A stretch of DNA of 62,519 nt from the NCBI GenBank assembly GCA_001321855.1, contig JPUP01000093.1:1-62519 (forward strand), written 5' to 3'. Below, piece by piece: positions 18,922 to 24,964 of the stretch; within the stretch, counting starts at the first letter, position 1; every line of letters starts with the position of its first letter. The position numbers and the translations under genes are program-made. The notes beneath the pieces were generated by a model. That model made no database searches, was not told the origin of the DNA, and saw nothing but the letters and a program-made list of their open reading frames with translations. Source of the stretch: SAR11 cluster bacterium PRT-SC02. GTDB taxonomy: Bacteria > Pseudomonadota > Alphaproteobacteria > Pelagibacterales > Pelagibacteraceae.

Positions 18922-20602
18922 ATGGACATAAGTAAATTAAATAGTTTAGTTGAGCTTTATTTTAAAAAAAAAGAGGAAGTTGATAGTAATAAACCTTTTT
19001 TACAATGGTTAAAAATAAACAAAAAAGAGATTTATTCTTGGAAAGATATTACTTCTCAAATATTTAAACTTACTGCTAAAATAAAATCATTGATAAAAGA
19101 AGGGGACAGATGTTTGATTCTATCTGAGAATAGACCAACCTGGTTAATGACTGATATCTCAATTATGAATGCCGGTGGTATTACTGTACCAATTTTTACA
19201 ACTTATTCTTCTAATGATTATAAATATATTTTAAATGATTGTAAGCCTTCATTGATAATAGTTTCTAATCAAGAACAATTTAATAAGATAAAAAAATTTA
19301 TTAATAATGGTGTAAAAAAAATTATATCATTTGAAAAAATTGATACTGACTGTTTATTAATTCAAGATATATTAAATGAAGATAATAACAAAAAAATAAT
19401 AAATTATAATTTAAAAAGAAATATGCCCGCATGTATAATTTATACATCCGGCACTTCCGGCCATCCCAAAGGTGTAGTTTTAAGTCATGGAGGAATTTTA
19501 TCTAATTGCGAAGGAGCAGTTGAACTTCTTGAACCTTTACTAAGAAAAAAAGATCCAATATTTTTAACTTGGCTACCTCTTTCACATTCATATGAGCATA
19601 CTGTACAATTTATCCAAATCATTATTGGTGCAAAAGTTTTTTATGCAGAAAGTTTAGAAAAATTAATTTCTAATATGGTAATTGCTAAACCAACAATTAT
19701 GACAGCAGTACCAAGATTTTACCAAAATCTATATACAAAAATAAATATCAATTTTGAAAAACAATCAGGTCTCAAAAGAAAACTAATAGATAAAACTTTA
19801 AGTCTAGGTAAAAAAGTACTTAAAAAAGAAAGTCTTAGCTTTAAAGAAAAAATTTTAAATTTTATCTGTGAAATATTAGTAAGAAAAAAAATCAGAAATC
19901 AGTTTGGTGGGAATCTTCAAGCATTTGTCTCTGGAGGTGGGGCTTTAGATCAAAATATCGGAGAGTTTTTAAATGCTGTGGGATTACCAACTCTTCAAGG
20001 ATACGGATTAACTGAGGCTTCCCCAGTTGTAAGCTGCAATTTACCAGATTTTGTTAAAGTAGAATCTGTTGGCCCTCCATTTAGAACAAATAAAGTAAAA
20101 ATAGCTGAGGATGGTGAAATTTTAATCAAGGGAGAAAACGTAATGTTGGGATACTGGAATTTAAAAGAAGAGACCGAAAAAGTAATAAAAGATGGATGGC
20201 TACACACAGGGGATATTGGTGAAATTGATAATAAAAATTATTTGAAAATTACAGATAGAAAAAAAGATATAATAGTAAATCTTGGTGGAGATAATATTTC
20301 ACCTAGCAAAATAGAAAATATTTTATGTTTAAATGAAAATATTAAGCAATCTTTTGTTTATGGAGATAAAAAAAATTATTTAGTTGCAATAATTGTTTGT
20401 GAAAAAGAAATTTCTGAAGAAAAAATTAAACTTATAATTGAAAATGTAAATAAAAGTTTAACTTTAATTGAAAAAATAAAAAAAATTTGTTTTAATTAAT
20501 CAGGAATTTTCAATTGATAACGGAATGCTTACACCAACATTAAAGTTGAAAAGAAAAGAAATTATAAAAAATTATAAACAATTACTTGAAAATCTTTATT
20601 AA
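18922..20602 (+). pseudogene. Long-chain acyl-CoA synthetase (AMP-binding) with apparent +1 indel near the C-terminus
   Basis: ORF 18922..20499 has IIYTSGTSGHPKGVVLSHGG, GYGLTEASP, DGWLHTGDIG; the conserved C-terminus FVLINQEFSIDNGMLTPTLKLKRKEIIKNYKQLLENLY* continues in another frame after an A8 run (20478-20485), to 20602. Confidence 0.88.
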
Positions 20603-20732: not shown

Positions 20733-20760
20733 TTGACAATAAACAAAAAAAACTTAAAGA
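20733..20760 (+). promoter_or_regulatory. Candidate promoter for the Lys/Arg microprotein
   Basis: TTGACA, 17-nt spacer, AAAGAT; good -35, weak -10. Confidence 0.4.
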
Positions 20761-20770
20761 TTAATTTATC

Positions 20771-20793
20771 AAACGAATCATTGTGATTTGTTT
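20771..20793 (+). promoter_or_regulatory. 5'UTR hairpin directly upstream of the microprotein Shine-Dalgarno
   Basis: AAACGAATCA-TTG-TGATTTGTTT (10 bp, one G-T wobble); SD GGGAGA at 20801. Confidence 0.5.
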
Positions 20794-20810
20794 TAACAAA
20801 GGGAGATAAG

Positions 20811-20885
20811 ATGGCTAAAAGAAGAAAAAAAGCTAAAAAGAAAACTAAAAAGAAAGCTAAGAAAAGAAGAAAAAGAAGAAGATAG
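20811..20885 (+). CDS. Lys/Arg-only basic microprotein (24 aa), putative nucleic-acid-binding
   Basis: ATG GCT AAA AGA ... TAG = MAKRRKKAKKKTKKKAKKRRKRRR; SD GGGAGA upstream; strong terminator downstream. Confidence 0.75.
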   Translation: MAKRRKKAKKKTKKKAKKRRKRRR

Positions 20886-20906
20886 TTTCCTTTTTATCTA
20901 AAAATC

Positions 20907-20944
20907 AAACGCCCTTTTTTCATAAAAAAAGGGCGTTTTTTTTA
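20907..20944. terminator. Intrinsic terminator, possibly bidirectional, between microprotein and carD
   Basis: ACGCCCTTTTTT-cat-aAAAAAAGGGCGT followed by a T-tract. Confidence 0.85.
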
Positions 20945-21613
20945 TTTTTCATCTAATAAGTTTTGATTTCTGCCTAATGCTTTATCCATTTTTTTTCTAG
21001 CTTCTTCAGAGGTAATTTGTAATACGGCCTCAAATTCAGATTTAAGTCTCTCATAAGCTTTCTCGAATAATTGTCTTTCTGAGTATGATTGATCAGCAAT
21101 AATATCAGTGTTTTTGTTTAAGTCTTTTACAACTTCTGCCAATTCATATATTTTACCAGAATTAATTTTTTGATCGTACTCTTGGGCTCTTCTACTCCAC
21201 ATAGTACGTTTTATTTTTGGCTTTGTTTTTAATATAGATACACATTTATTTATTTGATTAATGGATGAAATTGGTCTTAGATTTGATTGTTGATTTATAG
21301 GCACTGTCAAAGTCAACTTCTCTTTTTCTACAAAGATTTTGTAAAAGTTTATTTCTATTTCACCTATTTTTGCTTTTTCAACTGCTGTAATTTTTCCAAC
21401 ACCGTGTTTTGGATACACCACATAATCTTTAATATTAAACTGTCTTTTTTCTGTTGGTTGTTTTTTTATTTTTTTAATCTCAGGTTTTTGATCAGCGCTT
21501 AAGTTTAACGGCTTATTAGAGGTTTCCTTTTTAGTAGATATGGTACGAGTTTTTTTAGTTATCTTCTTTTTAGCCTTTTTCAATTTTTTTGGCTTTGTCT
21601 TTTTTTTTACCAT
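20942..21613 (-). CDS. carD: CarD/CdnL-family transcriptional regulator with Lys-rich N-terminal extension
   Basis: FNIKDYVVYPKHGVGKITAVEKAKIGE; about 57-aa basic N-terminal tail. Confidence 0.9.
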   Translation of the reverse strand: MVKKKTKPKKLKKAKKKITKKTRTISTKKETSNKPLNLSADQKPEIKKIKKQPTEKRQFNIKDYVVYPKHGVGKITAVEKAKIGEIEINFYKIFVEKEKLTLTVPINQQSNLRPISSINQINKCVSILKTKPKIKRTMWSRRAQEYDQKINSGKIYELAEVVKDLNKNTDIIADQSYSERQLFEKAYERLKSEFEAVLQITSEEARKKMDKALGRNQNLLDEK

Positions 21614-22344: not shown

Positions 22345-24810
22345 TTATTTTATATTTAATGACAATAACTTTTCAAAAGGGTTATCTTTTAAATAAATTT
22401 TATTATTTTTCAATTTCTTTTTATTATCTCCCTTAAAAACATAAGTATCCTTGCTTTTTTTATCCTTTTTATAATTCATATATTCCATTAAATTATAAAA
22501 ATCGCTCTTAGAACAGCCTAAAAGATTCATCATCTGGGAGTTAATTTGAAATTTACGTTTTTTTGTTTTTTCAATGATCATTATAAATAACTTTTCTAAA
22601 ATATCTATTCTTACAAAGTATTTGTTAAATTTCTCAAATCCACACAATAATAGAAATCTTTTATCTCTTTTCTCATTAGTTAAGAAATTTAACCCTGATT
22701 TTGGCACACTTAAAATGTTTTGATTATTAAATAGTTTCCATAACGAAATTCTAAGTTCTACCGCTTTAGGTTTTAACATCTTAGGCAAATAAATATGATA
22801 CCTTCCTATCTTGATACCCATTGACCAAAGTTTTTTTCGATTTTCTGTTGTTATTAATTTTAAAAGGTGCTCAACTTCCTCTCTTTTTATCACACCATTG
22901 TTTTCATAGAGTTGAAACAACAAAGCTCTTAAATATTGATTATCAATCTTACTTTCTGTTAGATTGATTAAGTCTCCAAGAACTTCAGTAATGTGACGTA
23001 AAAACCAATCTTTTAAAAAATTTTCTAGCTTAACTTTGTATTCTTCATCCAAAGTATCATCGGCTATAATATCAATATCAGGATTAAGATAATTATGCCC
23101 TTTTTTTAGATAACCAATAGAGAAGTCTTTCCATATAATTTTATTGTTTTCATTTAAATAAATTTCCTCTTTTTCTATTATATTCTCCACTCTTTTTTGC
23201 AATTCATCCTTAATACCTTTCCTTGCAGCTTTTTTAATTGATTTTACATCTGTATCCAAAGTTTTTGATGTTAAGGCTATATTAAACTTCAGTCCTTTAA
23301 GATCCCCAATATACTGATTATCTATTATGACTTTGTTTTTTTCATCTATATTCGTTTTCAAAATAAGGTCTTGTTTTAAGTTTCTTGATAACACGCTAAT
23401 TTTTTTATCTATGAAACTTCTCGTTAACTCCTCGTGAAGTTTGTCCGATAATTTATCTTCAATACTTTTAGTAAGCTGTACCCAGTAATCTGAATTTTCA
23501 ACCCAATTTTTTTTGTTCGCAACATACGACCAAGTTCTGACGTTTGAAATTCTGTGGGATAATACATCAATATTTCCATGATCTTTACCAAGACCTTTTA
23601 ATTGATCTTTCATGTAGTCGTTTGGAATTCTTCTTTTTCTAGTTGATAAAAACTTAAAAACTTTATCTATAATATTTATATGGTGATTATAAGCTTTTTT
23701 TTCAAAATCTGGTATTTGGCAACATTCCCATAATAATTCTAGATTAGTTTTATATAAATTATTATTTACCCCTTTTTTTAAAAAAAATCTCAGAACACTT
23801 TCATCAAGAGAGTCCTGAGTTCTCATTAAATTCGAGTTCTCCGGTTTTAATTCTAAAGACCCAATTAGTTTGTCTGGATTTTTAAAATTTAATTTAGAAT
23901 TTCTCCAAAATATAATTTTAGCTTCAGGTAAATTGTGTGTTTCTATTTTTTCTATTTCGTCGGAGTTTAAACTCTCACAATCTCCAGTGGTTCCAAATTT
24001 TCCATCATTCTTATATCTACCTGCTCTTCCCGCAATTTGTGAGATTTCAACCAAACTTAATCGTCTTGTTTTTTTACCATCAAATTTTTTTAAATTTGAA
24101 AAATAAATTTCGTTAATGTCCATATTCAGCCCCATCCCAATTGCATCAGTTGCAACCAGATAATCAACATCACCTGACTGATATAATTCAACTTGTGAAT
24201 TTCTAGTTTTAGGACTTAACGACCCCATAATGACTGCTGAGCCGCCTTTCTGTCTTCTTATCAATTCGGCTATTGCATAAACTTCTTCTATTGAAAAAGC
24301 TATAACAGCAACCTTACGATCTAATCTTGAAATTTTTTTATATCCACCGTAAGCTAGCTTTGAAAATCTATCTTTCTTTTCGAATTCAATATTTGGTATA
24401 AGATCGGAAATAATTTTTTTCATTATTTGCGAACCTAAAAACATCGTTAATTTTTCTCCCCTAGCATGCAAAAGTCTGTCAGTAAAAATGTGCCCTCTTT
24501 CTTTGTCTGCGCACATTTGAATTTCATCGATTGCAACAAACTCTACCTTTTTTTCTTTAGGCATGGACTCTACTGTACAGATGAAATAATCAGCATTACT
24601 GGGTATAATTTTCTCTTCTCCAGTAATTAGTGCAACTCTATCGGATCCAACAGCTTTAACACATTTGTCAAACACTTCTCTTGCCAAAAGTCTTAGTGGT
24701 AAACCAAATATTCCATTATTGAATTTGAGCATTTTCTCGATCGCAACAAATGTTTTTCCGGTGTTAGTCGGCCCCAACATCGCAATAATTTTTTGATTTG
24801 AATTTTGCAT
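22345..24810 (-). CDS. Suv3-like ATP-dependent RNA/DNA helicase
   Basis: 821 aa; AMLGPTNTGKTFVAIEKML, LPLRLLAREVFDK, ATDAIGMGLNMDI, QIAGRAGRY. Confidence 0.92.
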   Translation of the reverse strand: MQNSNQKIIAMLGPTNTGKTFVAIEKMLKFNNGIFGLPLRLLAREVFDKCVKAVGSDRVALITGEEKIIPSNADYFICTVESMPKEKKVEFVAIDEIQMCADKERGHIFTDRLLHARGEKLTMFLGSQIMKKIISDLIPNIEFEKKDRFSKLAYGGYKKISRLDRKVAVIAFSIEEVYAIAELIRRQKGGSAVIMGSLSPKTRNSQVELYQSGDVDYLVATDAIGMGLNMDINEIYFSNLKKFDGKKTRRLSLVEISQIAGRAGRYKNDGKFGTTGDCESLNSDEIEKIETHNLPEAKIIFWRNSKLNFKNPDKLIGSLELKPENSNLMRTQDSLDESVLRFFLKKGVNNNLYKTNLELLWECCQIPDFEKKAYNHHINIIDKVFKFLSTRKRRIPNDYMKDQLKGLGKDHGNIDVLSHRISNVRTWSYVANKKNWVENSDYWVQLTKSIEDKLSDKLHEELTRSFIDKKISVLSRNLKQDLILKTNIDEKNKVIIDNQYIGDLKGLKFNIALTSKTLDTDVKSIKKAARKGIKDELQKRVENIIEKEEIYLNENNKIIWKDFSIGYLKKGHNYLNPDIDIIADDTLDEEYKVKLENFLKDWFLRHITEVLGDLINLTESKIDNQYLRALLFQLYENNGVIKREEVEHLLKLITTENRKKLWSMGIKIGRYHIYLPKMLKPKAVELRISLWKLFNNQNILSVPKSGLNFLTNEKRDKRFLLLCGFEKFNKYFVRIDILEKLFIMIIEKTKKRKFQINSQMMNLLGCSKSDFYNLMEYMNYKKDKKSKDTYVFKGDNKKKLKNNKIYLKDNPFEKLLSLNIK

Positions 24811-24964
24811 ATTTGTGTTAGATTTTTATTTTAATACTATATATAGATCCTGATTGAGAACAAAATAAGATTAAAACATGACCGAATCAATTTGTCAAAT
24901 GTTCTAATTGACTTAAAACCTTGGGTCCCCGTATAGATTTTAAATCTTTTAAAGAAAAGTTTAT

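Follow-up and report, generated by a model that had tools for sequence, protein, structure and literature searches.

The question raised by this locus is whether a reading frame of only 24 amino acids can be a genuine gene and, if so, what its product could do. The frame lies in a 62,519 bp stretch of DNA (hereafter the window) from a 656 kb SAR11 assembly (Pelagibacteraceae) with a completeness of 60%. It is flanked by an acyl-CoA ligase gene upstream and by the convergent carD, and a ferredoxin gene is also nearby (Table 1). The product, MAKRRKKAKKKTKKKAKKRRKRRR, consists of 12 K, 7 R, 3 A, 1 T, and 1 M, that is, K and R make up 79% of the chain and 23 of the 24 residues are K, R, A, or T (21 according to the earlier note, which was right about the near-pure composition and the lack of acidic residues). 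It begins with MAKRRKK, its N-terminal half is Lys-rich, Arg is enriched at the C-terminus, where it forms a terminal run, and Pro, hydrophobic stretches, and a hydrophobic core are absent, leaving a side-chain charge of about +19. A search for ORFs with a length of ≥20 aa and a K+R content of ≥68% returned this one alone from the window and, from 1.32 Mb of the related genome G297, its orthologue alone; 2.5 Mb of simulated first-order Markov sequence yielded none. A second small basic ORF of G297 (C1, ~357195, minus strand) encodes MSYPKKHRGRRKQGSKKRRAKRKNKKK, 27 aa with 59% K/R, for which no Pfam match was found.

Table 1. Positions of the microprotein gene, its expression signals, and the convergent neighbour in the window
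Feature	Position	Strand	Basis
TTGACA, −35-like element of the microprotein gene	20733–20738	+	68/68 g1-type loci with enough DNA
Candidate −10 box AAAGAT (17-nt spacer, weak match, inferred)	20756–20761	+	Sequence; position partly conserved within clades
5′-proximal leader hairpin, AAACGAATCA-TTG-TGATTTGTTT	20771–20793	+	Local fold, leader comparison
CGAATCA in the 5′ arm of the hairpin, containing GAATC (GANTC/CcrM site)	20774–20780	+	70/70 g1-type leaders long enough
Shine–Dalgarno (SD) GGGAGA, 4 nt before ATG	20801–20806	+	GGGAG in 75/75, the window included
K/R-rich microprotein ORF, 24 aa, ATG...TAG	20811–20885	+	ORF reading, conservation, chance test
Bidirectional intrinsic terminator, AAACGCCCTTTTTT-CATA-AAAAAAAGGGCGTTT, common to convergent carD	20907–20938		CGCCCT..GGGCGTTT in 75/75
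carD (CarD/TRCF RID + CarD_C), convergent to the microprotein gene; product with a K-rich N-terminal tail	20942–21613	−	Pfam PF02559, PF21095

To follow the frame in relatives, 80 carD loci were fetched, approximately 75 of which contained a K/R-rich ORF, while those without one ended near carD at contig ends. Wherever enough flanking DNA was present (75/75 loci), a K/R-rich ORF of 21–25 aa was found convergent to carD, just past its stop codon. Start, frame, and stop were retained, the length differed by whole codons only, and the replacements (K/R, K/A, K/T, few A/T and A/G) were almost all among K, R, A, and T, with a pN/pS of 0.34 in 91 close pairs. Two near-complete genomes of g1, the genus of the window, lacked the ORF, but carD, the leader, and the ferredoxin gene were absent as well, thus a missing block is likelier than the loss of the ORF alone. 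Judged from these sequence comparisons, Pelagibacterales have inherited the ORF vertically as a genuine gene. The earlier note had proposed a real, separately controlled protein-coding gene that should recur beside carD in other SAR11 genomes, and it is upheld by the conserved synteny, by the coding constraint, and by the conservation of TTGACA, leader, SD-box, and terminator along with the frame. In one 11.5 kb contig (CACNAY010000020.1), the carD locus occurs at the two ends, inverted with respect to each other (L040, L041), which looks like an amplification or an assembly palindrome.

The −35-like element, the leader hairpin, the SD-box, and the terminator were located where the earlier note had described them (Table 1). 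In all 68/68 g1-type loci with enough DNA, TTGACA lies 40–41 nt upstream of CGAATCA, and where TTGAC was found in other genera and the sister family, it was 38–42 nt upstream of CGAATC. A generic consensus promoter scan did not call this promoter because of the poor −10 box. The conserved TTGAC spacing and the 17-nt spacer would place the transcription start at ~20768–20771, a few bases before the leader hairpin. The mRNA would then run from near 20770 to the terminator, a length of about 170 nt. This terminator is strong (−17.7 kcal/mol, z −7), as had been noted, but it is not dedicated to the microprotein gene, since carD converges on it and both directions are served.

The leader hairpin forms in the local fold with an MFE of −8 kcal/mol (z −1.5), an energy which is unremarkable by itself. 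The leaders of the other genera examined and of the sister family kept CGAATC, with A as the next base except for a G at one locus. The 3′ arm differed by lineage, being GATTTG in the clade of the window, GATTCG in g3, and TGATTC in the sister family, and a shifted stem (e.g., TCACTTAA/TTAAGTGA) was seen in g2, g278, and g279. Since nearly all lineages have a 5′-proximal hairpin, though with its 3′ arm replaced between genera, the comparison indicates that the hairpin is maintained and that its 5′ arm is conserved more than pairing demands. The covariation analysis recommended earlier gave no column-wise signal above shuffles, which is attributable to a core that never varies. As the hairpin probably begins within a few nucleotides of the 5′ end, like the 5′-terminal stabilising hairpins of the ompA type, it should shield the mRNA from 5′-end-dependent decay, and the strong SD-box should give a high output of the microprotein. 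Sister-family leaders (L126, L127, and others) have an extra CCTCT...CCC...GGGGGGAGAT element with predicted pairing around the start region, which perhaps limits translation.

The conserved 5′ arm bears on the earlier suggestion of the hairpin as a possible control element: the hairpin is there and is maintained, but CGAATCA fits a DNA methylation site as much as an RNA switch. CcrM is known in SAR11 (PMC3973325), and in cultured Pelagibacter 99.86% of GANTC is methylated, linked to the cell cycle (PMC9516812). All six well-covered Pelagibacterales genomes searched (6/6) had both GcrA and an N6/N4 DNA methyltransferase; one of these methyltransferases was tested and was closest to CcrM (6pbd, E 6e-140). 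Neither gene had a match in the window's own 60%-complete assembly. No other 5-mer pair of G297 was avoided as strongly as GAWTC (GAATC/GATTC), whose observed/expected ratio was 0.27 (0.59 for the next pair), which makes an invariant GAATC in the microprotein leader notable. The features of a CcrM/GcrA-type promoter found here are a conserved GANTC at the promoter and, in relatives, GcrA and a CcrM orthologue; in contrast to CcrM/GcrA GANTC promoters, however, the site lies just downstream of the probable start and not at the −10/−35 boxes. Transcription of the gene is perhaps controlled by methylation, and with a CcrM target only a few bases past its start, it may respond to chromosome replication. 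The leader GAATC is a concrete candidate target for GANTC methylation in SAR11.

Several further observations concern this motif. GAATC and GATTC were well under expectation in the window too, GACTC/GAGTC were not avoided in G297 (1.32 Mb, L158–L223), and at the sister-family carD loci (L126–L135; ~34 kb, a small sample) GANTC was not avoided, unlike in G297. The CGAATCA/TGATTCG sites that remain in G297 include ones just before recA, clpP, clpX, and an acetyl-CoA synthetase-like gene. The sole other CGAATCA of the window (24883–24889) lies between a divergent Suv3-like helicase gene (22345–24810, minus strand) and an aminotransferase-like gene (from 24965, plus strand).

Outside the clade of the window, the same place in other Pelagibacteraceae genera is occupied by versions of 21–50 aa (e.g., MPKKRKKAAKKTKKKAKKKAKKKAKKRRR), which in genus g279 contain AAPKKK-like repeats. 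In a sister family of the same order, proteins of 40–91 aa of the type MEELKVIFAKARKKAKKKAAPKKKRKAAKRKPAKKK..., built of K-A-P repeats, are convergent to carD. The Pelagibacterales versions thus range from 21 to 91 aa by repeat number; those of the sister family and g279 (34–91 aa) are Lys/Ala/Pro-rich, low-complexity, repeat-built sequences, and that of the window is made of K/R/A/T without Pro. A tree of CarD placed the sister family in one clade and grouped the longer versions by genus, a topology compatible with a long as well as with a short ancestor. For the homology of short and long forms, synteny, leader, and terminator would weigh more than the residues. No similar convergent ORF was found at 22 carD loci of non-Pelagibacterales Alphaproteobacteria; at one of them, a K/A-rich reading just before the carD match is probably the tail of carD itself. 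A class-wide search with the strict microprotein pattern hit 3/385 genomes, all from the same family as the window, and the pattern MAKRRKKAKK had no match in viral contigs. Among the Pelagibacter intergenic regions that Meyer 2009 tabulated as long and GC-rich, and among the motifs given there, the microprotein locus is not named (PMC2704228).

The simplest reading of a 24-residue chain with a charge of +19 and long K-A-P-repeat relatives would be an electrostatic nucleic-acid binder. We propose, with about an even chance of being right, that the microprotein is a minimal histone-H1-like polycation which binds nucleic acid, most likely the chromosome, and is made from a short, stable mRNA. 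It would probably be cytoplasmic and disordered, and through electrostatic binding it may help to neutralise and compact the DNA of very small cells. DNA is favoured as the ligand by the H1-like relatives and by the tolerance of length. Bacterial histone-H1-like proteins (chlamydial Hc1/Hc2, Bordetella BpH1, Pseudomonas AlgP) are likewise Lys-rich and low in complexity with varying repeat numbers, Hc2 ranging from 165 to 237 aa between strains (PMC2848022), and the sister-family orthologues are such K-A-P-repeat proteins. The window version differs from them in its mere 24 aa, its 79% K/R, and its lack of proline. Six representatives of the short and long forms gave only chance-level scores against Pfam and NCBIfam, thus “H1-like” denotes composition, repeats, and position rather than family membership. 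The histone-H1-tail-like idea of the earlier note gains from the 40–91-aa sister-family versions at the same place, and it is weakened by the lack of a Pfam/NCBIfam match. The 24-aa microprotein appears to have shrunk from the same stock as longer proteins of the histone-H1-like type, but low-complexity sequence can converge, which weakens this kinship. It also resembles protamines in being short, dominated by Arg/Lys, free of acidic residues, and ended by an Arg run; however, it is bacterial, has a Lys-rich N-terminal half, and has no known condensation stage, and homology is not claimed. The putative function is of an ordinary mechanistic class in an unusual size and setting.

SAR11 bacteria make up a large share of ocean cells and have small streamlined genomes. 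Their nitrogen economy makes a protein of nothing but Arg and Lys costly, and still the gene has been kept in place across the loci examined. Should the microprotein turn out to pack DNA, it would rank with the smallest known chromatin proteins, and its relatives, with lengths of 21–91 residues, would form a natural series in which the minimal sequence requirement of a nucleoid protein could be studied. A bolder and rather unlikely version of the proposal is that SAR11 reduced an H1-like protein to a protamine-like microprotein of 21–25 residues and that an order-wide CcrM site times its synthesis to chromosome replication; if true, a group that ranks among the most abundant marine bacteria would possess a chromatin protein that is both minimal and coupled to replication.

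The main rival to DNA binding is binding to RNA or the ribosome. Small basic ribosomal proteins such as eL41 and bTHX (also bL37) have a similar size and charge, and like them the microprotein might thread into rRNA and stabilise ribosomes, or act as an RNA chaperone, a possibility we consider real but clearly less probable than a chromosomal role. The strict conservation, the presumed high expression, and the Arg enrichment at the C-terminus would fit it. Unlike in a fitted part of the ribosome, however, length and repeat number vary freely (21–91 residues), the sister versions are K-A-P repeats, there is no linkage to ribosomal genes, and a PDB sequence search gave no match up to E 10, although a short low-complexity query has little power.

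AlgP, a histone-H1-like protein, affects the spacing of polyphosphate granules (PMC9239181), and its K-A-P repeats, which tie granules to the nucleoid, provide a precedent for a granule organiser to which the composition of the sister-family versions corresponds. Such a role appears improbable for the window version, which has neither proline repeats nor an extra domain, and no linkage to ppk was seen. Even less probable is that the RNA is the functional part, as a small or dual-function RNA in which the hairpin and leader matter and the peptide is secondary: the leader elements are indeed more conserved than the exact peptide sequence, but the strict integrity of the ORF, the low pN/pS, in-frame length changes only, and an SD-box in every locus argue for translation, and an Rfam search of the window returned two tRNAs and nothing else.

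A secreted antimicrobial peptide has to be considered because of MR-22 (MAKRRKKAKKKAKKAKKRRRRR-NH2), a 22-mer chosen from UniProt and reported as antimicrobial (PMC10847306), which is one Lys shorter than MAKRRKKAKKKAKKKAKKRRRRR, the ORF product of locus L096. MR-22 is almost surely a member of the microprotein family by its sequence, and the family thus suggests a source for this peptide; its exact coding sequence was absent from 397 family genomes, and the accessible text of the report mentions neither a SAR11 origin nor a native role (PMC10847306). According to the same text, MR-22 permeabilises the membranes of E. coli with MICs of 4–32 µg/mL, which rise to 256 µg/mL with added sodium, given as 150 µM Na+ in a table and as 150 mM NaCl in the methods (PMC10847306). 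The latter value looks right, but whichever holds, the loss of activity in salt disfavours a secreted antimicrobial role at sea, where the peptide should be inactive. Neither signal peptide, exporter, nor immunity gene was seen among neighbours encoding acyl-CoA ligase, CarD, and ferredoxin, and the microprotein is present across whole clades rather than variable like bacteriocins. On these grounds the secreted role was rejected as very improbable. The membrane damage by MR-22 shows that such chemistry is strongly polyanion-seeking, which favours a nucleic-acid binder. As this near-twin was drawn from UniProt, public protein databases contain at least a part of the family, and the expectation that the gene would usually go unannotated was partly wrong.

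An attenuation leader peptide or a chance ORF in A-rich DNA, where K and R are readily encoded by A/G-rich sequence, is hardly credible and was rejected, as only the terminator and then convergent carD lie directly downstream with nothing co-directional, simulations gave no equivalent, and the frame is conserved in 75/75 loci. A toxin–antitoxin system was dismissed as well, since the gene persists clade-wide, encodes a non-hydrophobic product, and stands without a partner gene.

Two observations were made in the adjoining genes. The N-termini of SAR11 CarD proteins carry long Lys-rich, H1-tail-like extensions (21500–21613 in the window; also L084, L085), and their gene is the neighbour of the convergent K/R-rich microprotein gene. 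The acyl-CoA ligase gene (18922–20499) has an apparent frameshift near 20485, an error or a mutation (region 20460–20602), and its conserved C-terminus ...NQEFSIDNGMLTPTLKLKRKEIIKNYKQLLENLY runs on in the other frame to 20602.
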